DNA of 64,000 bases from assembly GCF_014779595.1 (NCBI RefSeq), contig NZ_JACXZT010000018.1:62001-126000 (forward strand), read 5' to 3'. The notes beneath the pieces were generated by a model. The model saw only the letters and a program-made list of their open reading frames with translations, was not told where the DNA came from and ran no database searches. Position 1 is the stretch's first letter; each line of letters begins with the position of its first letter. Made by a program: the position numbers and the translations under genes. Below are positions 2,534-16,535 of this stretch, piece by piece. This DNA comes from Halomonas sp. ML-15. GTDB lineage: Bacteria > Pseudomonadota > Gammaproteobacteria > Pseudomonadales > Halomonadaceae.

Positions 2534-3733
2534 TCAGCGCAGCACCCGCCGGATCAGGAAAGGGCCGATCAGTTCGAAGAGCACGGTGGAGGCCACCACT
2601 GCCGAGAGCAGCAGCGAGCGGTGCTCGGGGAAGCGCTCGACCACCAGCAGCGCCATGCCCATGGCGATGCCGGCCTGGGGCGTCAGCGCCAGGCCAATAT
2701 CCCGGGGCAGCTCGGCGCTACGCCCCACCAACTGCACCCCCAGCGCCCCACCCATGAAGCGCCCCGCCAGGCGCAGCACGATATAGGCCAGCGTCAGCCA
2801 CAGCGCGGCGCCTATATAGCCAAGGTCGATGTGCGCCCCGGAAAGCACGAAGAAGAACACCAGGAACGGCCACTCGATATGCTCGATCTGACGAAACGAG
2901 CGTTTATGGTGGGAGGAGAGGTTGGCCACCAGCGCGCCTGCCAGCATCGCCGCCAGCAGCCCCGACACCTCGAGCCAGGTGGAGAACCCCGTCAGCAGCA
3001 GGATCAGCGCAAAGGCCTCGACCTGGGTCGGCTCCCCCGGCCGCAGGCGGCCGGTGAGCCAGGCCGCCGGCAGACCGATGGCCAACCCAAGCAGCAGTGC
3101 CCCGCCCAGCTCCCAGCCGGCATAGGCCAGCGCCAGGCTGCCGTCACCGGTCAGCTGCCAGCTGAGCAGCGCCATGGCCACCCCGAACAGCAGGATGCCC
3201 CAGGCATCGTCGATGGCCACCATGCCCATCAGCAGTCGCGCGCGCAGGCGGTCATCGCCCCGCGCGTAGACTTCGTCGCTGATCTCCGCCGGTTCGGTGG
3301 CCACCGAGATCGCCGCCAGGGCGACCACCACCACCAGTGGGAAGCCCAATAACCACAGCCCCACCCCGACCAGCAGCGCCCCGCTCAGCACGATGGACAG
3401 CGAGATCACCACCAACAGCCAGCCGTTGCGGCGCAGCCGCCTCAGGGTCAGCTCGCCGCCGAGCAGAAACGACACCAGCACCAGCGCCAGATGAATCAGC
3501 GGCTCGCTCATCGCCCCCAGCGGCGCGCTACCGTCACGCCCCAGCAGCAGCTGCTGGATAAGCGCCAGGGCCACGCCGACCAGCACCAGCAGCGAGATAC
3601 GCGGCAGACGCAGCCGCCTGGCCAGCGCGTCCACGCCGATGCTGACACTCAGAATGACACCCAGCAGGATCAGGTTGGCCGTCCCCGCACTGAGTTCGGC
3701 CATCGGCCACTGCCAGGTCTCGCTCGCGGTCAT
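2534..3733 (-). CDS. cation:proton antiporter, CPA2 family
   Basis: This 399-residue membrane protein has about 11 to 12 hydrophobic segments and matches the Na+/H+ exchanger domain (KefB/NapA-like CPA2). The Ile-Asp-Asp pair near residue 174, in the context Met-Val-Ala-Ile-Asp-Asp-Ala-Trp-Gly, corresponds to the ion-binding aspartates of electrogenic CPA2 exchangers. No regulatory RCK/TrkA domain follows, so it is a short form. Its start lies nine bases after the stop of the glutamine amidotransferase gene, which suggests co-transcription as the last gene of the long minus-strand cluster. The start could instead be Met11 at 3703. The exchanged ion is not determinable. Confidence 0.85.
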   Translation of the reverse strand: MTASETWQWPMAELSAGTANLILLGVILSVSIGVDALARRLRLPRISLLVLVGVALALIQQLLLGRDGSAPLGAMSEPLIHLALVLVSFLLGGELTLRRLRRNGWLLVVISLSIVLSGALLVGVGLWLLGFPLVVVVALAAISVATEPAEISDEVYARGDDRLRARLLMGMVAIDDAWGILLFGVAMALLSWQLTGDGSLALAYAGWELGGALLLGLAIGLPAAWLTGRLRPGEPTQVEAFALILLLTGFSTWLEVSGLLAAMLAGALVANLSSHHKRSFRQIEHIEWPFLVFFFVLSGAHIDLGYIGAALWLTLAYIVLRLAGRFMGGALGVQLVGRSAELPRDIGLALTPQAGIAMGMALLVVERFPEHRSLLLSAVVASTVLFELIGPFLIRRVLR

Positions 3734-3742
3734 ACGCCGAGC

Positions 3743-4450
3743 CTAGCGAGCCTGCTGCATGAAATTCAAGATCCAGCGCACCGTCAGCTCAGCATCCAGC
3801 GGCGCATCCAGCGAATCGAGGCCCTCGGCAACGCGTGACTCTCCCACCAACTGCTCACGCAGCTGCATCAGGTCGCGTGAGTAGGGCTTGGCAAACTCCG
3901 GATGCCCCTGCACGCCGAGGAAGTGCTCGCCGACCTGCATCAGGTAGTGGGGGCAGAAGTCGCTGCCGGCCAGCACCCGCGCCTCCGGCGGCAGCCGTTC
4001 GACCTGGTCCTGGTGGCTGACCAGCAGGTCGAGATTGGGCTGCCACGGCTGCATCCACTCGGTGCGGGCATTGACGCAGTTGAACGACATGCCCACCCCC
4101 CAGCCCCGCGGGCTCTTGACCACCTCACCGCCCAGCGCCTTGGCGATCAGCTGGTGGCCGAAGCAGACCCCCACCAGCGGCTTGCCGGCGTCCCACAGCT
4201 GGCGCACGAAGTCGCACAGCGCATCGACCCATGGCAGGCCGTCATTGACGCCGAACTTGGAGCCAGTGGTCAACCAGGCGTCGGCGGCCTCCACGTCGTC
4301 GGGGATCTCGCCGTCGAGGCAGCGCCACACGCGAAACTCGAGACTCGGGTCGACGCGCTTGAACAGCGCCTCGAACATCGCCGGGTAGTTGCCATGAGTC
4401 TCGATCAACTCCGGCGCCACGTCATCACACTGCAGCAGTCCTATGCGCAT
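3743..4450 (-). CDS. class I glutamine amidotransferase, probable gamma-glutamyl hydrolase
   Basis: This 235-residue protein is a stand-alone class I glutamine amidotransferase (GATase1) domain. The nucleophile is Cys96 in Gly-Val-Cys-Phe-Gly-His, with His183 and Glu185 in Gly-His-Pro-Glu-Phe. A strong AGGAGG sequence seven bases before the ATG at 4450 sets the start, seven codons inside the longest open frame. It sits with a glutamine-synthetase-like ligase, an aldehyde dehydrogenase and an alcohol dehydrogenase. In gamma-glutamylated amine catabolism a hydrolase is needed to release glutamate at the end, as PuuD does in putrescine degradation, and I infer that role here. It belongs to the GuaA-C-terminal-like subgroup rather than the PuuD peptidase C26 subgroup. 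Confidence 0.8.
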   Translation of the reverse strand: MRIGLLQCDDVAPELIETHGNYPAMFEALFKRVDPSLEFRVWRCLDGEIPDDVEAADAWLTTGSKFGVNDGLPWVDALCDFVRQLWDAGKPLVGVCFGHQLIAKALGGEVVKSPRGWGVGMSFNCVNARTEWMQPWQPNLDLLVSHQDQVERLPPEARVLAGSDFCPHYLMQVGEHFLGVQGHPEFAKPYSRDLMQLREQLVGESRVAEGLDSLDAPLDAELTVRWILNFMQQAR

Positions 4451-4487
4451 CGCCCGGCCTCCTGAGTCCATGCTTCACGACTATGAG

Positions 4488-5669
4488 TCAAAGACGCCCC
4501 TCCACCGCCGCGACAAAGATGTCGCGATACTGCGCGGCGTCGAAGGCGATCGGGTTGGTCCCCGAGGAGGGGTCGGCCACTGCCATCTGCCCCACCTTGT
4601 CGGCCTGCTGGGTATCGATCTTGAGCTCGGCCAGGGTGTGGGGAATCGCCAATCGTTCGCGCAGCTCCAGCACCCAGTCGATCACCGCCTCGGTGCCCGG
4701 CTGGCGCAGGTCGAGGTAGCGCCCCAGCCGCACCATCTGCTCGCCGATCGCCTGCTGGTTGGCGCGCAGCACATAGGGCATGAGGATCGCATTGAGGGTG
4801 CCGTGGTGGGCGTCGTAGAGCGCCCCCAGCGGATGCGCCAGGGCGTGCATTGCGCCCAGGCCGCGCTGGAAGGCGGTGGCCCCCATGCTCGACGCCACCA
4901 GCATGTTCATACGCGCCTCGAGATCGTTGCCATCTGCGTAGGCCCGCGGCAGGTAGTGGCAGACCCGGCGCATGCCCTCCACGGCGATGCCCTCGGCCAT
5001 GGGGTGATAGAGCGGCGAGCACCACGCCTCCAGGCAGTGCGACAGCGCATCCATGCCGGTTGCAGCGGTCAGCGTGGGCGGCAGGCCGGCGGTCAGTTCG
5101 GGATCGAGAATCACCGTGGCCGGCACCATCCCTGGATGAAAGATGATGCGCTTGACGTGCTCGACCTCGTCGGTAATCACCGAGGCGCGGCCTACCTCGG
5201 AGCCGGTGCCCGCGGTGGTCGGCACCGCCACGATGGGCGCGATGGCGTCAGCGTCGGCATTCTTCCAGTTGTCGCCAACGTCCTCCAGCGACCACAGCGA
5301 GAGCCCGTCGCGCTGGTTGGCCATCAGCGCCACCGCCTTGGCGGCATCGAGTCCCGAGCCACCGCCGAAGGCGATTACCCCGTCGTGGCCACCGTCGCGA
5401 AAGGCGGCCATGCCATCGAGCACATTCTTGCCAGTGGGGTTGCCCTTGATCTCGCTGAACACGGCAATGCCCAGGCCGCTGTTATGGCACGCCAGCACGA
5501 TATCGCGCACCATCGGCAGATTGGCGAGGCCGGGGTCGGTCACCAGTAGTGGCGCCTGCATGCCCAACGCCTGGCATACGGCGGGCAGCTCGCGGACTCG
5601 CCCGACGCCGGTGAGAATATTGGCGGGGTAGTTCCAGCCCATGCTGAACTGGCTCATATCCTGGTTCAT
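4488..5669 (-). CDS. iron-containing (group III) alcohol dehydrogenase
   Basis: This 393-residue protein is a Fe-dependent NAD(P)+ alcohol dehydrogenase of the FucO/EutG/AdhB type. It carries the nucleotide-binding Gly-Gly-Gly-Ser-Gly-Leu-Asp (about 102-108) and the metal ligands Asp207 and His211 (Met-Asp-Ala-Leu-Ser-His), His279 (Ala-His-Pro-Leu-Gly) and His289 (Asp-Ala-His-His-Gly). It lies between the GATase and the aldehyde dehydrogenase, nine bases downstream of the latter. In the proposed pathway it would oxidise the hydroxyl group of a gamma-glutamylated amino alcohol to an aldehyde. Its presence in place of the FAD oxidase PuuB is the main argument against a polyamine substrate. Confidence 0.9.
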   Translation of the reverse strand: MNQDMSQFSMGWNYPANILTGVGRVRELPAVCQALGMQAPLLVTDPGLANLPMVRDIVLACHNSGLGIAVFSEIKGNPTGKNVLDGMAAFRDGGHDGVIAFGGGSGLDAAKAVALMANQRDGLSLWSLEDVGDNWKNADADAIAPIVAVPTTAGTGSEVGRASVITDEVEHVKRIIFHPGMVPATVILDPELTAGLPPTLTAATGMDALSHCLEAWCSPLYHPMAEGIAVEGMRRVCHYLPRAYADGNDLEARMNMLVASSMGATAFQRGLGAMHALAHPLGALYDAHHGTLNAILMPYVLRANQQAIGEQMVRLGRYLDLRQPGTEAVIDWVLELRERLAIPHTLAELKIDTQQADKVGQMAVADPSSGTNPIAFDAAQYRDIFVAAVEGRL

Positions 5670-5678
5670 CGACGACTC

Positions 5679-7064
5679 CTAAGCGTGCTTGAGGTGGAAA
5701 GACTTGGGCCGGGTCAGGGTCTCGTAACCGAGCCGCGACAGCGAACAGCCGCGCCCCGACTGCTTGACGCCGGTCCAGGCCAGTTCGGGGTCGAGGTAGT
5801 CGCAGCGGTTGGTAAACACCGTGCCCGCCTCCAGGCGCTGCGCGAGGCGCTCGCCGGCCGCCATATCGCGGGTGAACACCGCCGCAGTGAGGCCGAAGGC
5901 GCTGTCGTTCATCAATGCCACCGCCTCGTCGTCGGAGGCCACCGGCATGATCCCGACCACCGGGCCGAAACTCTCCTCGTGCATGACCCGCATCGAGTGG
6001 TCGACGCCGGTGAGCAGCTGCGGGGCCAGGTAGGCACTACCCGGCAGCGAGAGCGGATAGTCCCCGGGATCGATCCACGCCTTGGCGCCGGCGGCGACCG
6101 CCTCTTCGACCTGGCCCCTGACGAAATCCGCCGCCGTCGGGCGCACCAATGGGCCGAGGCTGGTGGCCGGGTCGGTGGGATTGCCTAGTCTAAGCTGCTT
6201 GACCCAGGCCACCGCACGCTCGACGAAGGCGTCGAAGATCGCCTGGTCGACATAGATGCGCTCGATGCCGCAGCAGCTCTGTCCCGAGTTGAAGAAGGCG
6301 CCGTCCATCACCCCCTCCACCGCGGCATCCAGATCCACGTCGCCACGAATATAGGCCGGATCCTTGCCGCCCAGTTCCAGGCCGGTGGCGATAAAGCGCC
6401 CGACGCTGTTGCGCTCAACCATCTCGCCGCCGGCCACCGAGCCGGTAAAGGAGACGTGATCGACACGCCGGTCGCGGATCAGCTGCTCGGTCGCAGCGTG
6501 GGACAGGTGCAGATGCTGGAACACCCCCTCGGGCAGGCCCACCGCATCGAAGGCCTGCTGAATACGCTCGGCGCACAGCGGGGTCTGGGCGGAGTGTTTG
6601 AGAATCACCGTATTGCCGGCCATGATCGCCGGCACGATGGCGTTCACCGCGGTCATGAAGGGAAAATTCCACGGTGCGACGATAAACGACACGCCCAGCG
6701 GTTCGCGGGTGATATAGCGGGTAACGCCCGGCTTGTCGGCCAACCGGATCGGTGCCAGCGCCGACTCGGCCAGGCTGATCATGCCCCTGGCGCGCTCCTC
6801 GAAGCCGCCGATCTCGCCCCCCGCGGCAGAGATCGGCCGGCCCATCTGCCAGGTCAGCTCGCCGGCCAGCTCATCGCGCCGGGCGACGAAGGCGTCGACC
6901 ATCGCCGAGCAGTAGCGTGCGCGCTCGACGATCGGCACCTCGCGCCAGCTACGCTGAGCGCTGGCCGCCCGCGACAGCGCGGTCTCGATCTGTGCCGGAT
7001 CGGCCAACTCCCGCTCGACATAGACCGAGCCATCGACGGGAGATATCGTTTTCTGTGTGGGCAT
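5679..7064 (-). CDS. aldehyde dehydrogenase
   Basis: This 461-residue NAD(P)+-dependent aldehyde dehydrogenase has the Pro-Trp-Asn-Phe-Pro motif (131-135), the general base Glu230 in Leu-Glu-Leu-Gly-Gly-Lys and the nucleophile Cys264 in Gly-Gln-Ser-Cys. A second Cys follows at 265. It is a little shorter at the N-terminus than typical 480 to 500 residue family members. It is the likely second oxidation step after the Fe-alcohol dehydrogenase encoded next to it. A good AAGGAAAG lies upstream of the ATG. The 391 bp between it and the ligase gene upstream contain an intergenic repeat, so the distal part may be expressed separately from the promoter-proximal part. Confidence 0.9.
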   Translation of the reverse strand: MPTQKTISPVDGSVYVERELADPAQIETALSRAASAQRSWREVPIVERARYCSAMVDAFVARRDELAGELTWQMGRPISAAGGEIGGFEERARGMISLAESALAPIRLADKPGVTRYITREPLGVSFIVAPWNFPFMTAVNAIVPAIMAGNTVILKHSAQTPLCAERIQQAFDAVGLPEGVFQHLHLSHAATEQLIRDRRVDHVSFTGSVAGGEMVERNSVGRFIATGLELGGKDPAYIRGDVDLDAAVEGVMDGAFFNSGQSCCGIERIYVDQAIFDAFVERAVAWVKQLRLGNPTDPATSLGPLVRPTAADFVRGQVEEAVAAGAKAWIDPGDYPLSLPGSAYLAPQLLTGVDHSMRVMHEESFGPVVGIMPVASDDEAVALMNDSAFGLTAAVFTRDMAAGERLAQRLEAGTVFTNRCDYLDPELAWTGVKQSGRGCSLSRLGYETLTRPKSFHLKHA

Positions 7065-7455
7065 ACGCTTATCTTTCCTTCCTGTAGCGAGTCATAAGGC
7101 TTAGTTCGCTGCTTCCCGAAGCCGCCAGCCACTCGGCCCGCGGCTAATCCGGCGACAGGCCATCGCGAAGACGCTGTAAACCCTTCCCTGGGCGCTCCAT
7201 TCTTCTTCTGACCGCCAAGGATGGCGGGAATGCCGGAATTGAAAGGAGCATTTTCCGGCCCTGAAGAATGAGCTTCGCTCCTGCCTGTCCCCGGCGCCGC
7301 TCATCGTTCCGCCTACCAGTACTACCAAGGTGAGCACTGAGCGAGCGGTTCGCAGGCAAGGCGGAGCGGAAATGAGTGAGCGGAGTTGACTCCAGTCAAT
7401 GAGCATCGCGAGTTTTCGCTTCAACGCAGCCTGCGGATCGCGCAGCCAGTGCGGA
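7065..7455. repeat. intergenic region carrying copy A of a two-copy intergenic repeat (about 7146-7316)
   Basis: This 391-bp gap holds no gene. From about 7146 to 7316 it contains a structured sequence that starts with CTAATCCGGCGACAGGC and ends with GCCTGTCCCCGGCGCC, roughly inverted ends. The core ACGCTGTAAACCCTTCCCTG followed by GGCGCT (about 7171-7196) is repeated nearly exactly at about 22612-22636. Both copies then carry a short palindrome (here ACCGCCAAGGATGGCGG), a GGAGCA-containing segment and the GCCTG(T/C)CCCCGGCG end. It resembles the palindromic intergenic repeats of halomonads and related genera. Here it separates the ligase gene from the aldehyde dehydrogenase gene within one transcription direction. 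Confidence 0.6.
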
Positions 7456-8835
7456 TCAAATAATCTCGAAATAGCGATCCAACTCCCAATCGGTTATGTG
7501 GCGGCGGAACTCCCGCTCCTCCCACTCCCGGGTCGCCGCGAAGTGCTCCACGAAGTCGTCGCCGAACAGCGCCCGGGCCGGCTGCGACGCCTTGAGCCGC
7601 TGGGCGGCTTCCCACAGGGTGCGCGGCAGCGCCTGGTGCGCGGGGTGCTCGAATTCATAGGCGTTACCGCGCACCTGCTCGTCCGGCTCGAGGCGCTGCT
7701 GAATGCCGTACAGGCCGGCGCCGATGGCGGCCGCCAGCGCCAGATAGGGGTTGGCATCGGCGCTGCCGAGGCGGTACTCGACGCGCTGCGACTTGGCGCT
7801 GCCGGGAATCACCCGCAGCGCCGTGGTGCGGTTCTCTACCCCCCAGGTCGCCTCGGTGGGCGCCCAGAAACCGGGAATCAGCCGCGTATAGCTGTTGATG
7901 GTCGGCGCAAACATCGCCAGGAACTCGGGCATCAGCTGCTGCTGACCGGCCACGAAGTGGCGCTGAATATCGCTCATGGTATAGGGCTGGTCGGCGTCGA
8001 AGAAAGCCGACTCACCGCTGTCGGCGTGGGTCAGCGACAGGTGGATATGGCCGCTCTGGCCCGGGTAGTCCGGCGACCACTTGGCCATGAAGGTGGCCAT
8101 CAGACCGCGGCGCTGCGCCCACACCTTGGTGAAGGTCTTGAACAGCGCGCCCTTGTCGCCCGCCGCCAGGGCGCCGTCGACGCCGATGGCCGCCTCGAGT
8201 ACCCCGGGGCCGGTTTCGGTGTGCAGCCCTTCGATGGGAAAATCCATCGCCTCGGAGAGCGCCAGCAGCTCGTGGTAGAGCTCGGCGTGCACCGAGCTTC
8301 TCAGCATCGAGTAGCCCATCATGTCCGGCGTCAGCGGGGTCAGGTTGCGATAGCCTTTCTCGCGGATCGACTCCGGGGTCTCGCGAAACATGAAGAATTC
8401 GTACTCCAGCGAGCCGTGGGCCTTGAAGCCCATGGCGCTGGCCTGATCGAGCACCCGTCGCAGCAGCCCGCGCGGGCAGATCGCCTCAGCCTTGCCGCTG
8501 AACTCGGCGAGAAACAGCAACATGTCGCCCTCGGCCGGCACCTCGCGGCAGCTCTCGGGAATGATGCACAGCTGGGCGTCCGGATAGCCGGTATGCCAGC
8601 CGGTGTACTTGACGTTGTCGTAGAGCTCATCCTTGCTGTCCCAGCCCAGCACCACGTCGCAGAACGCAAAGCCCTCCTCCAGGGCATGGAAGAACTTGTC
8701 GCGATGCATGTACTTGCCGAGCATCACGCCGTCCATGTCGAACATGCCGACCTTGACGTGGGTCAGGCCGCGCTCCTCGACCAGGCGTCGGGCCTCGTCG
8801 GCGCTGGTGATGTATCGGGGTGATAGTTGACTCAT
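7456..8835 (-). CDS. glutamine-synthetase-like gamma-glutamyl ligase (GlnA3/GlnA4/PuuA type)
   Basis: This 459-residue protein has the beta-grasp N-terminus and the catalytic domain of glutamine synthetase. Visible are Gly-Ser-Leu-Glu-Tyr-Glu (first metal site), His-Thr-Glu-Thr-Gly-Pro-Gly (second metal site), the Gly-His-Ile-His motif and the Glu-Asn-Arg-Thr-Thr-Ala-Leu-Arg stretch. The adenylylation loop of assimilatory GlnA (Asn-Leu-Tyr-Asp-Leu-Pro) is not conserved; the region reads Asn-Ala-Tyr-Glu-Phe. Together with the dehydrogenases and the amidotransferase this points to ATP-dependent gamma-glutamylation of an amine rather than ammonia assimilation. The amine is unknown; ethanolamine or a related amino alcohol is my inference. 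Confidence 0.85.
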   Translation of the reverse strand: MSQLSPRYITSADEARRLVEERGLTHVKVGMFDMDGVMLGKYMHRDKFFHALEEGFAFCDVVLGWDSKDELYDNVKYTGWHTGYPDAQLCIIPESCREVPAEGDMLLFLAEFSGKAEAICPRGLLRRVLDQASAMGFKAHGSLEYEFFMFRETPESIREKGYRNLTPLTPDMMGYSMLRSSVHAELYHELLALSEAMDFPIEGLHTETGPGVLEAAIGVDGALAAGDKGALFKTFTKVWAQRRGLMATFMAKWSPDYPGQSGHIHLSLTHADSGESAFFDADQPYTMSDIQRHFVAGQQQLMPEFLAMFAPTINSYTRLIPGFWAPTEATWGVENRTTALRVIPGSAKSQRVEYRLGSADANPYLALAAAIGAGLYGIQQRLEPDEQVRGNAYEFEHPAHQALPRTLWEAAQRLKASQPARALFGDDFVEHFAATREWEEREFRRHITDWELDRYFEII

Positions 8836-8911
8836 GGCAGCTTCCTAAATGGGCCAAAGGTCATTGGCGGGCATACGGGGAGCGGTCCAGTGGCCCGCCC
8901 CCTGAGGTTCC

Positions 8912-9973
8912 TCAACTGTAGCGGTAAGGAGGCCCCGCCTGCTGCATGGTTTCGCGATAATCCTTGAGGATCTGCACCACCTTGGCGCTGCGTTCGCTCT
9001 GCTCGGCGATCTCATCCCAGAACGCCAGCGCCTCGTCCTCGAGGGTCTGCCACTCCTCCTCGGGGATCGAGGTGAGCTCGAGCTTGCCACCGGTGGTGCG
9101 GTAGTGGGCTTCGCCCCACCAGTACCAGTGCTGGCGGTAGTAGTGGGAGTTGTCCATGCACAGCTTGAACAGCGTCTGCAGGTGCTCGGGCACTTCGTTC
9201 CAGCGGTCGCTGTTGGCGAAATAGGAGCCGGCCCAGGCACCGGAGATATTGTTGGTCAGGTAGTAGCTGCTGACGTCGGCCCAGCCCACGGTGTAGGCCT
9301 CGGTAATGCCGGCCCAGGCGATCCCGTCGAGCTCGCGGGTCTGCATGGCGACCTCGATGTCCTCCCACGGCAGGGTCACCGGTACCACCCCGAAGCGGCT
9401 CAGGAAGCGACCGGCGGTGGGGAAGGTGAAGACGCGCTTGCCGCGCAGGTCCTCGAGGCTGCGAATCGGCTCGCGGGTCACGAAGTTGCAGGGATCCCAG
9501 GACCCGGCGCCGAGCCAGGTCACGCCATCCACCTCGCCGTAGGCCTCCTCCCAGATCTCCTTGAGGCCGTAGTGGTGGAACAGTGCCGGCACGTCGAGGC
9601 TGTAGCGCGAGGCGAACGGGAAGTAGCCGCCGAACACCGACACGTCCACCGGAGCGTTGATCGAGTCGTCGTCGCTCTGCACTGCATCGATGGTGCCGCG
9701 CTGCATGGCGCGGAACAGCTCGCCGGTGGGCACCAGCTGGTCGGCATAGTAGAGCTCGATCTCCATCTCGCCGTTGGCGGCCTTGTTGAAGGCATCGATG
9801 GAGGGCTTGATGACGTGGGCAGCCAGCGCCGGTCCGGCGTAGGTCTGCATGCGCCAGCGGATCGGGCTCGACTGGGCATGCACATAGGGCGCGCCGATGG
9901 TGGCCGCGCCCACCGTGGCAGCGGTCGCCGCCCCAGCCTTCTTGAGAAAATTGCGCCTGTTGTTATCGGTCAT
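8912..9973 (-). CDS. dctP: TRAP transporter substrate-binding protein (DctP family) with Tat signal
   Basis: This 353-residue protein is the periplasmic binding component of a tripartite ATP-independent transporter. The N-terminus has a twin-arginine motif (Asn-Arg-Arg-Asn-Phe-Leu-Lys, residues 4-10) and an Ala-rich hydrophobic stretch ending in Val-His-Ala-Gln, so export through the Tat system is likely. The ATG at 9973 is preceded by GGGAGAAG; the longer frame starting at 10006 has no good site. It follows the DctM gene by 91 bp. Its abundance of Trp and Tyr around residues 220 to 280 resembles the alpha-keto-acid/amine-associated DctP subgroup, but the ligand cannot be read from sequence. 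Confidence 0.9.
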   Translation of the reverse strand: MTDNNRRNFLKKAGAATAATVGAATIGAPYVHAQSSPIRWRMQTYAGPALAAHVIKPSIDAFNKAANGEMEIELYYADQLVPTGELFRAMQRGTIDAVQSDDDSINAPVDVSVFGGYFPFASRYSLDVPALFHHYGLKEIWEEAYGEVDGVTWLGAGSWDPCNFVTREPIRSLEDLRGKRVFTFPTAGRFLSRFGVVPVTLPWEDIEVAMQTRELDGIAWAGITEAYTVGWADVSSYYLTNNISGAWAGSYFANSDRWNEVPEHLQTLFKLCMDNSHYYRQHWYWWGEAHYRTTGGKLELTSIPEEEWQTLEDEALAFWDEIAEQSERSAKVVQILKDYRETMQQAGPPYRYS

Positions 9974-10064
9974 GATACTTCTCCCATGGATTGTTGTTGT
10001 TACCACTTCTCACACCGCTTGCTCGCGGCACTTGTGCTTGCCCGTCGCCGGGCATACTCACGAT

Positions 10065-11384
10065 CTATCCGTAGTAGAGCTCCGGCAGCCATAGCGCCAA
10101 CTGCGGGAAGGCGGTGATCAGGCCCAGCCCCAGCACCATGATCGCCACGAACGGCCACACGCTGCGGTAGATATCCATCAGCGTCACCTCGGGGGGCGCC
10201 ATGGCGCGCATCAGGAACAGGTTGTAGCCGAACGGCGGCGTCATGTAGGCGATCTGTACGGTGATGGTGTAGAGCACGCCGTACCACACCGGATCGAAGC
10301 CCAGACTCACCACCAGCGGCACGTAGAGCGGGGCGACGATCACCAGCATCGCGGTGTCGTCGAGGAACATGCCCATCAGGATGTAGGAGAGCTGCATCAT
10401 CAGCAGGATCTCCCAAGGGCCGAGGCCCATGCGATCGAGGAACACGTTCTCGATGGCGCGCACCGCCCCCAGACCGTCGAACACCGCGCCGAAGCAGAGC
10501 GCGGCGAGGATGATCCACATGAACATGCAGCTGATGCCCAGGGTGCGACGCACCGTGACCTCGATCACCGCACGGGTCAGGCGCCCCTTGACCAGCGCCG
10601 CCAGGATCGCCGCGAAGGCGCCATAGGCAGCACTCTCGACCAGGCTGGTAACCCCCATCAGAAACAGTCCGGTCATCGAGAAGAAGATCAGCAGCGGCAG
10701 GATCCCGGCGCTGAGCAGCTTGAGCTTGGACCCCAGGCTCATGTTGCGCTCCTCGGCGGGCAGCGCCGGGCCCAGGCTCGGCTGCAGCCGGCAGCGCACC
10801 ACGATATAGATCACGAACATCGCCGCCAGGATCAGCCCCGGGAATACCCCCGCCAGCCACAGCTTGCCTACCGGCTGACGCGCAATCATGCCGTAGAGCA
10901 CCAGCACCACACTGGGCGGCACCAGAATGCCCAGCGAGCTGCCGGCCTGAATCACCCCGGTGACCATGATCTTGTCGTAGCCGCGGCGCAGCAGCTCCGG
11001 CAGGGCGATACTGGCGCCAATTGCCATGCCCGCCACGCTCAGCCCGTTCATCGCCGAGACCACCACCATCAGGCCGATGGTGCCGATCGCCAGACCGCCT
11101 TTCAGCGAGCCCATCCAGACGTGAAACATCTCGTAGAGATCGCCGGCGATACCCGACTCGGAGAGCATGTAGCCCATGAACACGAACAGCGGCAGGGTCA
11201 GCAGCGGATACCAGTTCATCAGCACGAAGCTGGCGTTGAACGGCATCTCCACCCCACCGTCGCCCCACAGCAGCAGCGCTGCGGCGGCGCCGACGAAACC
11301 GATCACCCCGAACACCCGCTGGCCGGTCAACAGCAGCAGCATCATGGTCGAGAACATCATCAGCGCGATCATCTCGTAGCTCAT
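10065..11384 (-). CDS. dctM: TRAP transporter large permease (DctM)
   Basis: This 439-residue membrane protein has about 12 hydrophobic segments and matches the DctM/TRAP-T large subunit, which couples Na+ entry to substrate import. The characteristic Pro-Pro-Ser motif (Gly-Ile-Leu-Val-Pro-Pro-Ser) is near residue 157 and the second Thr-Pro-Pro-Phe-Gly near residue 383. Its ATG overlaps the DctQ stop by four bases, indicating translational coupling. It is the standard partner of the DctQ and DctP encoded beside it. Confidence 0.93.
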   Translation of the reverse strand: MSYEMIALMMFSTMMLLLLTGQRVFGVIGFVGAAAALLLWGDGGVEMPFNASFVLMNWYPLLTLPLFVFMGYMLSESGIAGDLYEMFHVWMGSLKGGLAIGTIGLMVVVSAMNGLSVAGMAIGASIALPELLRRGYDKIMVTGVIQAGSSLGILVPPSVVLVLYGMIARQPVGKLWLAGVFPGLILAAMFVIYIVVRCRLQPSLGPALPAEERNMSLGSKLKLLSAGILPLLIFFSMTGLFLMGVTSLVESAAYGAFAAILAALVKGRLTRAVIEVTVRRTLGISCMFMWIILAALCFGAVFDGLGAVRAIENVFLDRMGLGPWEILLMMQLSYILMGMFLDDTAMLVIVAPLYVPLVVSLGFDPVWYGVLYTITVQIAYMTPPFGYNLFLMRAMAPPEVTLMDIYRSVWPFVAIMVLGLGLITAFPQLALWLPELYYG

Positions 11385-11908
11385 GCGTCGCCCTCCTCGT
11401 CGATGGGGCGACCCAGCGCCACGCCCAGATCACGGAAGAAGGTGGCGAAGGCCTGCAACAGCATCAGCACGATGCCGGTGCACATGATGAGTTTGATCGG
11501 CGCCAGCGGTGGGGCCCACGAGGAGTGGTTTCGCTGGCCGTACTCCAGCGCGTACTGGGTGCTCGAGATACCGCCCAGCAGCAGGGTGACCAGGAAGGTG
11601 ATCAGAAACACGATGGTGATGGCATCGACGCTGGCCTGGGTACGCGGCGACCAGCGACTGTAGAACAGGTCCATGCGCACATGAGAGCCCATCTGCATGG
11701 CGTAGGCGCCGCCCAGCAGGTAGTAGCTGGCGAGCATGAACTGCGACATCTCCACCCCCCACAGCAGCGGCGCATTGAGCACCGAGCGCGAAAAGGAGGC
11801 GTAGAGCAGCAGCCCCATCATGATGAAGATCATGTACATCACCAGCCGCCCCACCCCACGATTGAGGCGCTCTACCCAGCGGACATAAACACTTATTGTT
11901 CTTGGCAT
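11381..11908 (-). CDS. dctQ: TRAP transporter small permease (DctQ)
   Basis: This protein of about 175 residues has four predicted membrane helices and the Trp-Gly-Val-Glu-Met-Ser pattern of DctQ small subunits (typically Trp-x-x-Glu-hydrophobic). It overlaps dctM by four bases. I chose the ATG at 11908; the frame can be extended eight codons to a GTG at 11932, and neither start has a strong ribosome-binding site. It is the first structural gene after the LysR regulator. Confidence 0.85.
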   Translation of the reverse strand: MPRTISVYVRWVERLNRGVGRLVMYMIFIMMGLLLYASFSRSVLNAPLLWGVEMSQFMLASYYLLGGAYAMQMGSHVRMDLFYSRWSPRTQASVDAITIVFLITFLVTLLLGGISSTQYALEYGQRNHSSWAPPLAPIKLIMCTGIVLMLLQAFATFFRDLGVALGRPIDEEGDA

Positions 11909-12003
11909 TGGATCGTCATTCCCGCGTCGCACAACGAATGGCTTTCAGTCTTGGACGCAGATTGACGATCTGGCAAAGAGCATCGGTGGCGCCGACGCCG
12001 CCG

Positions 12004-12022
12004 CTATCGGAAAAATCGATAG
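12004..12022. promoter_or_regulatory. inverted repeat in front of dctQ, possible LysR operator
   Basis: CTATCG and CGATAG are separated by seven bases (GAAAAAT). The pair lies in the 155-bp gap between the LysR gene and dctQ, about 95 bp upstream of the dctQ start. LysR regulators typically bind dyads with T-N11-A spacing near the promoters they control, and this dyad contains such a spacing. It could also be a weak stem-loop between the two genes. Confidence 0.35.
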
Positions 12023-12063
12023 TGCACACCCAAGGCGCACTGGGTGGGATCCGATGCGCCGAC

Positions 12064-13023
12064 TCAGGGCTGGGTAGAGACCTCGCCGGAGAGCCAGGGC
12101 AGGCCGCGGTCGAGCTCCTGTCGGAAGCGCAGCTCAAGCAAACGACGGGCGTCGCGGGCCAGCTGGGCAGGGAGATCACCCAGCTCGTCGCGGCGTGAGA
12201 CCAGCGTCAGCTCACGCTGCAGGGGCGCCACCGGCAGCGGCGCCACCCGCACCTGCAGCGTCTCCAGGCCGGCCTGGTAGAGGCATAGCGGGGTGGTGAT
12301 GGTCCAGCCGGCGCCGGCGCTGACAAGGCGCAGCACGGCGAAGGTGTTGTCGAGATGCAGGCGTGCCGGGAGTTCGAGCTGGTTGAGGCGCAGGTGGCGC
12401 TCGATGGCCTGGCCGATCAGCGACTGCGGGGTATAGCGCACGAAGTCGAGCTGGCGGGTCAGCCAGCGCAGGTTGTCGAGGGGCCCTGACCAGCTGGCCG
12501 GCGCCACCAGCACGAAGGGCTCGCGCAGCACCGCATGGCGCTCGAGGCCATCGTAGTTCTCGAGACGGTCGTCGGAGACGATGATATCGACGTGGCGAGT
12601 CAGCAGGGCGTGGCTATGCATATGCGACAGCCCGGTGGTCAGGGTGTAGTCGCGGGTGTGCCGCTTGATCAGCTCGATCAGCGGCTGCCCAACCGCCGTG
12701 GCCAGCGAGTCGACCAGCGCCAGGCGCACCTGATGCAGCTGACCGAAGGCCCCGGAGACCAGTTCGCGGCGGGTGCTGCGCGCCTCGTCGAGCAGGCGCC
12801 GCGCACGGTCGTAGAAGAAGCGCCCGGCAGCGGTCGGTTCCAGCGGCCGGGCATGGCGCTTGAACAGGCTGACGCCCAGCCCCTCCTCGAGGGTGGCCAG
12901 GCTCTGAGACACCGACGACTGCTTGAGCCCCAGGCGCCGCGCGGCAGCGCTCTGGCTGCCCTGCTCCAGGGTCTCGACGAAGATTTCCATGCTACGTAGA
13001 TCGAACCCGAAACCGCTGCGCAT
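12064..13023 (-). CDS. LysR-family transcriptional regulator, likely controlling the adjacent TRAP/gamma-glutamyl cluster
   Basis: This 319-residue protein has an N-terminal winged helix-turn-helix (about residues 8-67, with Gln-Ser-Ala-Ala-Ala-Arg-Arg-Leu and Ser-Ser-Val-Ser-Gln-Ser-Leu in the recognition region) and a LysR substrate-binding domain (about 95-300). It is encoded immediately upstream of dctQMP on the same strand and divergently from the cyclotransferase-like gene. The position suggests it regulates the cluster in response to its substrate or a gamma-glutamyl intermediate. Confidence 0.88.
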   Translation of the reverse strand: MRSGFGFDLRSMEIFVETLEQGSQSAAARRLGLKQSSVSQSLATLEEGLGVSLFKRHARPLEPTAAGRFFYDRARRLLDEARSTRRELVSGAFGQLHQVRLALVDSLATAVGQPLIELIKRHTRDYTLTTGLSHMHSHALLTRHVDIIVSDDRLENYDGLERHAVLREPFVLVAPASWSGPLDNLRWLTRQLDFVRYTPQSLIGQAIERHLRLNQLELPARLHLDNTFAVLRLVSAGAGWTITTPLCLYQAGLETLQVRVAPLPVAPLQRELTLVSRRDELGDLPAQLARDARRLLELRFRQELDRGLPWLSGEVSTQP

Positions 13024-13119
13024 CCTCGTATCCTTGAATGACCCACCCCTTGACCCTGTATCTCTAGCAACAGAGTATCGTTTAAGGATGATCAGGCCCA
13101 GCCTGACCGGGAGGATCCC

Positions 13120-13530
13120 ATGTCACATCTACTCTTCGTTTACGGCACCCTCAAGCGCGGCTTCGCCAACCACGCCGGCTACCTCGGCGAGGCCGAATTC
13201 CTCGACCTGGCGGTGACCTGCGAGCCCTTTCCACTGGTGCTCAACGGCCCGCGCTTCTCGCCGGTACTGGTCGATGCCCAGGGCAAGGGCCTCAAGGTCC
13301 GGGGTGAGCTGTTTCGGGTCGATTCGCCGACCCTGGATGAACTCGACCGCCTGGAACGGGTCAATGAGCGCGATGGCTATCGCCGCCGCCGGCTGGCAAT
13401 TGCCGACCCGCACGGCCAGGTTCGAGCCGCCTGGAGCTATCTCAAGCCGCCCAGTTGGGTGGACGACGTGAGAAGCGAGCCCATGGCCATGTATGATGAC
13501 AACCGCTATCGGGCCAGGCCTGACGCCTGA
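13120..13530 (+). CDS. gamma-glutamylcyclotransferase-fold protein (AIG2/GGACT-like)
   Basis: This 136-residue protein has the Tyr-Gly-Thr-Leu-Lys-Arg-Gly substrate loop at residues 8-14 and the Leu-Asp-Arg-Leu-Glu79 motif followed by a Tyr-Arg-Arg, the signature of gamma-glutamylcyclotransferase-like enzymes. Related proteins release 5-oxoproline from gamma-glutamyl amines or peptides. Glu79 would be the catalytic acid/base. A GGGAGGATCCC precedes the ATG. Being divergent from the LysR gene of a gamma-glutamylation cluster makes a role in clearing gamma-glutamyl compounds attractive, but this is inference from position and fold. Confidence 0.8.
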   Translation: MSHLLFVYGTLKRGFANHAGYLGEAEFLDLAVTCEPFPLVLNGPRFSPVLVDAQGKGLKVRGELFRVDSPTLDELDRLERVNERDGYRRRRLAIADPHGQVRAAWSYLKPPSWVDDVRSEPMAMYDDNRYRARPDA

Positions 13531-14394: not shown

Positions 14395-15240
14395 TTACGG
14401 CCAGCTATAGACACCGCGATTGAGGCCGTCGCGCATCGCCGAGATCACCTTGGCGCCGCGCAGGGTGGCGCCGCTGAAGCCGTCCACCTCATCGACCACT
14501 CGCGCGGGCTCGTAGAGAGCGAAGATCGAGGTCAAGGGCTCGCCCTCCAGCCACTCGGTGATGCGACGATGCTGCAACATCACCGGGTATAGATCCTCGT
14601 CCTCCTCCAGCGTCAAGTAGTCGACGCCGCGGTAGGCGAGGTGGCGGAAATTCACGTCCGTCAGCTGGCCATCGCGCAGGTCGAAGGTGATATTGACCTG
14701 AATCTCGCCGCGGTCGGTGAACACGCCGCGATAGTGGCCATCCATGGGCTGGCCCAGCATCGCCCGGTGCAACCGCAAGTCCTCGGCGGGTGACGGCGCA
14801 GCGTCCGGGGCCGCCTCGGCGGTTTCCTGACTTGCCGCCTGACCGGTCTGGTCATTCGCCTCGCCACCCTCTATCGGCTCTCCCTGGTCATCCACCAGTC
14901 GCCCGATACGGTAATCCTCCAGCTGGCGCTCGGCGGCTGGACTATGCGGCCGTCCAGGGCTCTTGTTGTCCCACGCCTCGCTGGATTCACGCCCGCACCA
15001 GTCGAGGATCACCTCCTCATCGGTAGGGTGGTCGGGGACGTAGTCGGTGATGTCGTAGACGCCGCCGTGAATGGCCTTCCAGCAGCTCTCGGCGCTGGCG
15101 TGTTCGGCCAGCTCATCGAGGGTGATATCCCGCGCTTCGCTGGCGGTGTCGGCCTCGTCCGAGGAGAGCGCCTGCACCGATATCAGGGTGCCGATACTCG
15201 CCAGGAAGGCGATGAAGGCGCTATAGGCAATCTTGTTCAT
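14395..15240 (-). CDS. cytochrome b5-like / FMN-binding domain fusion protein
   Basis: This 281-residue protein starts with a membrane anchor or signal peptide (1-25). A cytochrome b5-like domain follows (about 38-115) with candidate heme ligands His71 (Asp-His-Pro-Thr) and His99 (Arg-Pro-His-Ser). An acidic, Ala-rich linker (about 116-152) leads to an FMN-binding domain (about 165-281). That domain contains Asp-Gly-Phe-Ser-Gly-Ala-Thr (253-259), the consensus for covalent flavinylation by ApbE, with Thr259 as the predicted attachment site. Its start overlaps the stop of the upstream reductase gene by four bases. It likely sits on the periplasmic face and takes electrons from that reductase; the final acceptor is unknown. 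Confidence 0.8.
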   Translation of the reverse strand: MNKIAYSAFIAFLASIGTLISVQALSSDEADTASEARDITLDELAEHASAESCWKAIHGGVYDITDYVPDHPTDEEVILDWCGRESSEAWDNKSPGRPHSPAAERQLEDYRIGRLVDDQGEPIEGGEANDQTGQAASQETAEAAPDAAPSPAEDLRLHRAMLGQPMDGHYRGVFTDRGEIQVNITFDLRDGQLTDVNFRHLAYRGVDYLTLEEDEDLYPVMLQHRRITEWLEGEPLTSIFALYEPARVVDEVDGFSGATLRGAKVISAMRDGLNRGVYSWP

Positions 15241-16535
15241 AGGAAATCGAAGACCTCGCAGTGGATGCGCGATGCTGGCACGCCTTGGGCGGCGAGCAGC
15301 TCTCGCAGGTGGCCAATCATGCCCGGCGGGCCGCACAGGTAGATCTCGCGATCGGCATAGTCCGGGCAGTGGTGGCGCAGGAAGGACTCGCTGAGCGGTC
15401 CCAACTGGCGATAGAAATGGGGTGTCACCGTGAAGTGCTCGACGCCCTCGGCACAGCGGCTGAGTTCATCCAGGTAGTAGGCCCGGTCGGCGTCATTGGC
15501 CAGATAGAACAGCTGGACGCGACGCGACTCGTCTGCCGCCGCCATGCCTCGCGCACCGCTGACGAAGGGCGTAATGCCGATGCCGCCGCCCAGCCATAGC
15601 GCATCGCGCTGGGGATAGTGCGCAGCGAAGAAGTCACCGTAGGGCCCCTCGATCATCGCCCGGCTGCCCACGCTGACCGTCTGCAGCGCGTGGCTGGCGT
15701 CGCCGAGATCCTTGATGCCGACCCGCAACAGCGAATCGTTCGGGGCCGAGGCGATGGTGTAGGGGTGTTCCTCGCCCCGTCCCGCCGTCAACGACTCGTC
15801 GAGCGGCGTGAGATAGATGAACTGGCCGGGGCGATAGTCGAGCCCACGGACCTCCGGGCGCAGCGCAATCTCCACCACCCCGCGGGCCAGCGACTCGACG
15901 CTCTCCACCCGATAGGGGTGGCGGGCCAGCGACGGCGACAGCAGCTTGCGCCATACCATGGCACCAGCACCCAGCGCCCCCAGCAGCCACCACGGCCAGG
16001 TCTCCCCCGCCAGCGGCAACGCATGCCCTAGCGCCAGCAGCAGAGCCGCCGCCGACAGCATATGCAGGCGCTTCCAATGCTGGTAGTCGAGCCGCCCGAA
16101 GAACTGGAAGGTCGGCGCCAGGAAGATCACCATCGCCAGCCACGCCAGCCAGCCGCTCCAGAGCGCCAGCTGCGAGAGCGGCGGAAACAGCGTCAGCACC
16201 GCCACCTCCAGGCCCGCCGGCACCCGCGCCAGACCCAGCGCCAGCACATGCAGCATGATCAGGATAAAGGCGCTGAAGCCGAGCAACCGGTGCAGCTGCC
16301 AGAGCCGGTCGAGCCCGCCGAACCAGCGGTCGAATCCCGGCAGCCGAATGCTCAAGGCCGCGGTCACCAGCAGCATGGCTAGCCCTAGAATACCGCTGAC
16401 GCGCCCCACCCAGCCGAGCAGCGCCGCCGCCTCACCCGGCGGCCAGCCCAGTCTCGGCCCTGCCACCGCCAGCGGCACCAGCAGCGCAACAATCAGCAGT
16501 AGATCGCCGCGGTAGAGACGCAACGGCATAGACAC
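15237..16535 (-). CDS. ferric-reductase-like membrane flavocytochrome
   Basis: This 432-residue protein has six hydrophobic segments in the first 200 residues, with His residues in transmembrane positions (His-Arg-Leu-Leu-Gly and Met-Leu-His-Val). This is the ferric-reductase-like heme-binding domain. A ferredoxin-reductase-type module follows: FAD motif His-Pro-Tyr-Thr-Ile-Ala-Ser near 255, NAD(P) motif Gly-Gly-Gly-Ile-Gly-Ile-Thr-Pro near 318 and Cys-Gly-Pro-Pro-Gly near 402. It should move electrons from cytoplasmic NAD(P)H across the membrane. The overlapping downstream gene encodes the probable electron acceptor. An FNR-like box 67 bp upstream suggests oxygen-responsive control. Confidence 0.85.
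   Translation of the reverse strand: MSMPLRLYRGDLLLIVALLVPLAVAGPRLGWPPGEAAALLGWVGRVSGILGLAMLLVTAALSIRLPGFDRWFGGLDRLWQLHRLLGFSAFILIMLHVLALGLARVPAGLEVAVLTLFPPLSQLALWSGWLAWLAMVIFLAPTFQFFGRLDYQHWKRLHMLSAAALLLALGHALPLAGETWPWWLLGALGAGAMVWRKLLSPSLARHPYRVESVESLARGVVEIALRPEVRGLDYRPGQFIYLTPLDESLTAGRGEEHPYTIASAPNDSLLRVGIKDLGDASHALQTVSVGSRAMIEGPYGDFFAAHYPQRDALWLGGGIGITPFVSGARGMAAADESRRVQLFYLANDADRAYYLDELSRCAEGVEHFTVTPHFYRQLGPLSESFLRHHCPDYADREIYLCGPPGMIGHLRELLAAQGVPASRIHCEVFDFL

Follow-up and report, generated by a model that had tools for sequence, protein, structure and literature searches.

Which compound is taken up and degraded by the products of a transporter operon in Halomonas sp. ML-15, and does that operon belong to a type already described? 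Within the 64,000-nucleotide stretch analyzed here (contig NZ_JACXZT010000018.1, positions 62,001 to 126,000; hereafter the window), a single head-to-tail series on the minus strand, running from 13023 to 3743, encodes a LysR-type regulator, the DctQ, DctM and Tat-exported DctP components of a tripartite ATP-independent periplasmic (TRAP) transporter, a glutamine synthetase (GS)-like ligase, an aldehyde dehydrogenase (ALDH), an iron-dependent alcohol dehydrogenase (Fe-ADH), and a class I glutamine amidotransferase (GATase)-like protein (Table 1). We conclude, with a probability of roughly 0.85, that the locus is an ethanolamine-utilization operon of the gamma-glutamylation type, with a ligase, a final hydrolase and a regulator unlike those of the Chromohalobacter salexigens type. 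The latter, comprising Csal_0678 and Csal_0679, was reportedly described as an ethanolamine operon by Vetting et al. in 2015 from a predicted pathway and a ligand structure.

An earlier sequence-only reading of this locus had proposed that an amino alcohol is gamma-glutamylated, oxidized by the two dehydrogenases, and released as an amino acid plus glutamate, and had put ethanolamine first among its candidate substrates. As far as sequence comparison goes, this chemistry fits the evidence below, and ethanolamine is the best-supported substrate; what that reading missed is the unusual part of the locus, namely the three components that set it apart from the C. salexigens-type operon.

Results

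Organization of the locus

As the earlier reading had described, the named genes lie on one strand; each is an intact open reading frame (ORF) with the expected domain, judged by the ORF list and NCBIfam and Pfam scans, except that DctQ has no NCBIfam match and is assigned by position and homologues. Spacing between the genes ranges from a 4-base overlap, at dctQ/dctM, to about 130 bases, with the exception of 391 bases between the ligase and ALDH genes. An Fe-ADH (PF00465) and an ALDH (PF00171) stand beside the ligase, and the ligase-ALDH-Fe-ADH group adjoins TRAP genes again in many other genomes, so the grouping is not due to chance. The host genome comprises 4.80 Mb in 20 contigs, and four genomes of the same genus were available for comparison.

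The TRAP binding protein is of the EtoX/Csal_0678 type

DctP is 68–69% identical, over 311–313 residues, to Csal_0678 (PDB 4UAB), the structure of which was solved with ethanolamine and in which Glu220 holds both the amine and the hydroxyl of the ligand (PMC12410723). The equivalent platform glutamate, in a GITE motif, is residue 223 in the window protein and residue 220 in the Chromohalobacter-like protein of locus L092, and it is invariant in 19 of 19 aligned sequences. We assign DctP to the EtoX/Csal_0678-type TRAP binding proteins. The dedicated transporter proposed in the sequence-only reading fits this assignment; its being unusual does not, since EtoX/Csal_0678 is already known.

In Phaeobacter sp. 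MED193, an operon encodes an RpiR regulator, gamma-glutamylglycine amidohydrolase, the TRAP transporter EtoVWX, ethanolamine gamma-glutamylase, and aldehyde and alcohol dehydrogenases; proteomics found its enzymes and EtoX raised on phosphorylethanolamine, and EtoX binds ethanolamine with a Kd of 7.9 uM (PMC10132767, which refers back to C. salexigens and to Agrobacterium C58, citing Vetting et al.). The similarity of DctP to Csal_0678 with retention of the platform glutamate, together with the induction of this same-step operon on phosphorylethanolamine, argues for ethanolamine as the substrate at the window locus.

EtoX is associated with two types of ligase

In a DctP-alignment scan of named genomes, the best 80 of at least 574 relatives were kept as loci, and their ligases were labeled type A if nearer to the window ligase (59–97%) or type B if nearer to the L092 ligase (54–68%). 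Type A ligases occur in 25 loci, type B ligases in 34, and no ligase lies within the stretch examined in 21, some of which are on short contigs. The type A loci come from Halomonadaceae, Pseudomonadaceae, Vibrionaceae, Thalassospira, Oceanibacterium, Desulfopila, and metagenome-assembled genomes (MAGs) of one Desulfobacteraceae member and one gammaproteobacterium.

Ligase type does not define a single clade on the DctP tree, a quick tree without bootstrap of 81 rows (79 of the 80 loci, the fragment L165 having been dropped, plus the window and L092). Specifically, 8 changes are needed for label A and 10 for label B, of which starred branches force at least 5 and at least 7, respectively; two type B Pseudomonas sequences lie within type A Pseudomonadaceae, and a type B Kiloniella sequence lies beside type A Vibrionaceae and Thalassospira. 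EtoX has been reassorted between the ligase clades, and one kind of transporter therefore serves both ligases.

Three side observations concern these loci. L130, whose record bears the title Bacillus subtilis SK6B4, falls with Pseudochrobactrum on the DctP tree and is probably mislabeled or contaminated. L124, L128 and L132 are among the 21 loci in which no ligase was found within the stretch examined and where the enzymes may sit elsewhere or differ; a Pfam scan of 20 neighboring ORFs from 12 of the 21, some probably not genes, found no Eut protein and no common alternative. Upstream of the ligase in L250, near 8957, tblastn matches one tenth of DctP (81% identical), perhaps a decayed EtoX.

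Most EtoX-less relatives examined carry an APC permease

A family survey of 151 genomes identified 39 with a type A ligase (at least 70%) and 35 with EtoX, with an overlap of 24. In 12 of the 13 EtoX-less type A loci examined (L237–L249; 13 of 15 such genomes, G115 and G133 being left out), an APC permease gene directly precedes the ligase gene. For three of these 12 permeases, scores were obtained with TIGR00908, a model of ethanolamine permeases (cut-off 382 bits): L242 and L244 reach 554 and 536 bits, and L249 reaches 353. The permeases of L243, L237 and L248 are 80–99% like that of L242. Furthermore, the cluster of Litchfieldella anticariensis (L122) combines the EtoX TRAP genes with an ethanolamine permease (11891–13315, 551 bits). 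The presence of ethanolamine-type permeases beside EtoX-less type A ligases, together with the reassortment of EtoX between ligase clades, points to ethanolamine as the substrate.

The ligase lies outside the Csal_0679 clade

The window ligase is 30–32% identical to its C. salexigens-type counterparts (31.6% to the Chromohalobacter-like L092 ligase and 30% to 5dm3, titled Csal_0679). In a tree of 29 rows (9 type A, 7 type B and 13 others), type A forms a clade (97/99) that groups with other GS-like proteins and not with type B. A single clade of type A and type B with its kin is rejected (p-AU 5.5e-4, for this 29-row sample and a grouping chosen after the tree was seen), within a tree limited by long branches and a small, hand-chosen sample.

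The two types also differ at the position that, in ammonia-using GS, holds the catalytic flap residue Glu327. In an alignment of type A (the window and 24 loci, without L121) and type B (L092 and 33 loci, without L171), every type A ligase (25 of 25) carries Trp at this position and every type B ligase (34 of 34) Phe; the GlnA of the window's genome has Glu there, and two further GS-like ligases of that genome have Ser and Tyr. The same place is occupied by Phe331 in Streptomyces GlnA4, which glutamylates ethanolamine in assays, and by Trp296 in PauA7 (PMC6529630). The window ligase retains the equivalents of GS E129, E131, E212, E220, H269, R321 and R339 and has Pro as the N264 equivalent; the alignment shows a gap in the Tyr179 column. 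The earlier reading had it lacking the adenylylation loop of GlnA; the NLYDLPPEE context is indeed missing, but a Tyr aligned with GlnA Tyr397 is present in all 25 type A and all 34 type B ligases.

Could the ligase instead be a GS or an enzyme of the polyamine (Puu) pathway, making glutamine or gamma-glutamylputrescine, while the two dehydrogenases serve other ends? Its PF00120 domain, the identity of its best NCBIfam models (GlnA, type III GS, PuuA), and the Asp in its GS Asp50 column would suit this explanation, yet all three scores lie far below the cut-offs (209.8 versus 429 bits for GlnA, TIGR00653; 193 versus 470 for type III GS; 180 versus 650 for PuuA, GGputSyn), and the flap Glu that would go with an ammonia-dependent GlnA is replaced by Trp. 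Moreover, no PuuB-like oxidase is found among the locus genes, and the TRAP binding protein resembles one known to bind ethanolamine. The genome also has its own GlnA and, in a separate cluster (L098), the two GS-like ligases mentioned above, neither of which comes near the PuuA cut-off, together with a PuuD-like protein (211 bits, cut-off 266). We regard a GS or Puu function as very improbable. The replacement of the flap Glu by Trp, as in PauA7, rather speaks for ethanolamine, as does the content of the host genome, in which neither a TIGR00908 permease match nor EutB, the ethanolamine ammonia-lyase of the Eut microcompartment, was found (the E. coli positive control for EutB matched).

A class I GATase stands in place of the PF05013 hydrolase

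The pathway proteins of C. salexigens are listed as PF00120, PF00465, PF00171 and PF05013 (PMC9397018). At the window locus, no hydrolase of the N-formylglutamate amidohydrolase family PF05013 closes the set, and a class I GATase stands there instead. The same division is seen among relatives: a class I GATase lies near 12 of the 25 type A and none of the 34 type B ligases (Fisher 5e-6, relatedness ignored; the L184 GATase, one of the 12, is only 30% identical), and a PF05013-like hydrolase lies near 29 of the 34 type B and none of the 25 type A ligases (Fisher 5e-12, relatedness ignored; domain confirmed for L092 and L071 only). The contig of one type A locus, L121, ends within the Fe-ADH gene. 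All 16 GATase sequences aligned retain Cys103, His190 and Glu192. Among solved structures, the nearest to the window GATase is gamma-glutamyl peptidase 1 (9k7i; E 9e-21, over only 175 residues), a plant protein.

Another enzyme that might act at the last step is encoded by the GGACT/AIG2-like gene upstream of LysR. It would split gamma-glutamylglycine, or gamma-glutamylethanolamide, to 5-oxoproline, leaving the GATase to other work, and its PF06094 match and its linkage in 8 of the 16 EtoX-bearing type A halomonad loci (L096, L097, L101–L114) lend this some support. However, it lies on the opposite strand, it is one of five PF06094 genes in the genome, and it is linked in 0 of 13 EtoX-less loci, 11 of which have the GATase. 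The GATase gene, in turn, immediately follows the Fe-ADH gene within the operon, and among solved structures its product most resembles gamma-glutamyl peptidase 1. We consider the cyclotransferase route quite unlikely; as linkage is not constant among kin, we rejected the gene as a core part of the pathway and view it as an accessory or a chance neighbor.

Observations that weigh against the ethanolamine assignment

The assignment rests on transporters, homology and neighborhood, the enzymes of this version being predictions, and several observations weigh against it. Around the platform glutamate, halomonad EtoX reads AGITEA (window 9290–9310) versus SGITED in most others, and its ligand range may differ accordingly. 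Seven of the 12 APC permeases (L249 and six more) are only 40–42% identical to the best-scoring one, L242; the one scored from this group, L249, falls below the TIGR00908 cut-off, and because sub-cut-off matches to this model also occur in 11 of 14 control genomes, the 40–42% group is less sure. In L239, no transporter gene was seen beside the ligase. For 13 of the 25 type A ligases, mostly those of Pseudomonas, a search of the surroundings found no GATase, and the ORFs scanned from four Pseudomonas type A loci (L170, L154, L153, L191) gave alpha/beta hydrolases, Mem_trans proteins, one short-chain dehydrogenase/reductase (SDR) or no match, with no clear gamma-glutamyl hydrolase. Finally, 24 of 25 type A ligases have an Asp aligned with GS Asp50, unlike GlnA4 and PauA7, in a stretch that aligns poorly; the predicted structure of the window ligase has a moderate mean pLDDT of 74, with values below 50 at residues 59–81, in this same stretch.

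Alternatively, the pathway could be of the same kind with type A enzymes specialized for a small amino alcohol other than ethanolamine (L-alaninol, isopropanolamine, 3-aminopropanol or serinol), which would leave ethanolamine as a side substrate. The separation of the ligase from the Csal_0679 clade and the AGITEA sequence beside the platform glutamate agree with such a specialization, as does a second structure of Csal_0678 (4xf5), reportedly with 2-amino-1-propanol as its ligand. Against this, the same enzyme set also occurs with permeases above the TIGR00908 cut-off, and the reassortment of EtoX between both ligase clades is hard to square with clade-specific substrates. We therefore judge another amino alcohol to be unlikely and retain ethanolamine.

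Predicted pathway and flanking genes

Ethanolamine would be bound by the EtoX-like DctP and enter through DctQM. The ligase would then use ATP to join it to glutamate, forming gamma-glutamylethanolamide, the hydroxyl of which the Fe-ADH would oxidize to the aldehyde. The ALDH would convert the gamma-glutamylated aldehyde to gamma-glutamylglycine, from which the GATase-like enzyme is predicted to release glutamate and glycine. LysR is the probable regulator of these genes; a homologue is present in 16 of the 16 EtoX-bearing type A halomonad loci and, at full length, in 8 of the 13 EtoX-less type A loci. A terminator-like stem lies between LysR and dctQ (12041–12021), a weak signal given 7 such sites versus a shuffle mean of 3.6.

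Table 1. Features of the window in and around the predicted ethanolamine operon
Feature	Coordinates	Strand	Basis
LysR-type regulator, probably regulating the operon	12064..13023	-	PF00126 and PF03466
DctQ, small TRAP permease subunit, EtoV-like	11381..11932	-	Position; homologues located by tblastn next to DctM/DctP at related loci
DctM, large TRAP permease subunit, EtoW-like	10065..11384	-	TIGR00786, 243 bits (below cut-off 268); 63–98% to related-locus homologues
DctP, Tat-exported TRAP solute-binding protein, EtoX-like, predicted ethanolamine binder	8912..~9967	-	TAT signal, 23.6 bits (cut-off 16.7)
Glu codon of the GITE motif in DctP	9299..9301	-	Equivalent of Csal_0678 Glu220
GS-family ligase, predicted gamma-glutamylethanolamide synthetase	7456..8835	-	PF00120, 322 bits
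Trp codon in the ligase at the place of catalytic flap Glu327 of ammonia-using GS	7864..7866	-	Alignment
ALDH, predicted to oxidize the gamma-glutamylated aldehyde	5679..7064	-	PF00171, 416 bits; near the ligase in related loci
Fe-ADH, predicted gamma-glutamylethanolamide dehydrogenase	4488..5669	-	PF00465 and PF25137
Class I GATase-like protein, predicted gamma-glutamylglycine hydrolase	3743..4471	-	PF00117
Na+/H+ exchanger-family antiporter, not a conserved part	2534..3733	-	PF00999
GGACT/AIG2-like gene (gamma-glutamyl cyclotransferase family), divergent from LysR	13120..13530	+	PF06094, 77 bits

The span of the sequence-only reading, 2534–13530, also took in the antiporter and the GGACT/AIG2-like gene, neither of which is constant beside the set. 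The antiporter gene lies 9 bases behind the GATase gene. Among kin, it follows the GATase gene immediately in just two genomes of the same genus, G003 and G004; elsewhere it is displaced or was not found within the stretch examined. With linkage not kept across all kin, we rejected it as part of the pathway.

Farther out, a plus-strand gene at 1389–2528 encodes an isoaspartyl dipeptidase (TIGR01975, 404 bits, above cut-off) beside a family 3 solute-binding protein (422–1318). On the other side, the minus strand carries at 14395–16535 a pair that, on reading alone, looks cytochrome b5-like and ferric-reductase-like; L239 has a comparable pair immediately upstream of its ligase, which suggests an old neighborhood.

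Comparison with known systems

Neither the pathway nor its TRAP transporter is new; what looks new is a second, separately assembled version. On balance, we favor the view that the gamma-glutamyl ethanolamine route has been assembled at least twice, once with a Trp-flap ligase and a class I GATase and once with a Phe-flap ligase and an enzyme of the N-formylglutamate amidohydrolase family, both with exchangeable transporters (EtoX TRAP for either set, and an APC ethanolamine permease in addition for the first). We found no paper on this version in the open-licence literature, and one may still be in print. In the sea, membrane lipids supply ethanolamine, which serves as a source of nitrogen and carbon and whose utilization is followed with marker genes (PMC10132767). 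Should this second enzyme set carry out the same conversion, surveys by Csal_0679-type ligases or PF05013 hydrolases would overlook it in halomonads and in the Pseudomonas and Vibrionaceae species found here, and two separately evolved ligases for one small amine would offer a probe of amine choice in the GS fold.

The E. coli Puu pathway gamma-glutamylates, oxidizes twice, and hydrolyzes. It uses the amine oxidase PuuB and the permease PuuP, in contrast to an alcohol dehydrogenase and a TRAP transporter here; no amine oxidase was found among the genes scanned in 2534–13530, where an Fe-ADH stands instead, and the PuuA model scores far below its cut-off. Gamma-glutamyl peptidase 1 is class I GATase-like, as is the predicted final hydrolase, and its entry name implies action on gamma-glutamyl peptides; the substrate of the window enzyme is a prediction. 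Streptomyces coelicolor GlnA4, compared by description, is likewise a GS-like enzyme that gamma-glutamylates ethanolamine and has an aromatic residue in place of the flap Glu; its proposed hydrolase belongs to the formylglutamate amidohydrolase family, and the available part of the source describes no TRAP transporter (PMC6529630).

The Phaeobacter sp. MED193 EtoVWX-ETAGA-GAADDH-GETADH-GGAH operon, also compared by description, shares the transporter kind and the steps and differs in its RpiR regulator and gene order. With the C. salexigens operon, the window locus shares an EtoX-type TRAP transporter, a GS-family ligase, an Fe-ADH, an ALDH, and a predicted route to glycine and glutamate. Because the ligase falls in another clade, with a Trp flap in contrast to Phe, the final hydrolase is a GATase and not a PF05013 protein, and the regulator is LysR in contrast to the RpiR of L092, we do not assign the locus to the C. 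salexigens operon type.

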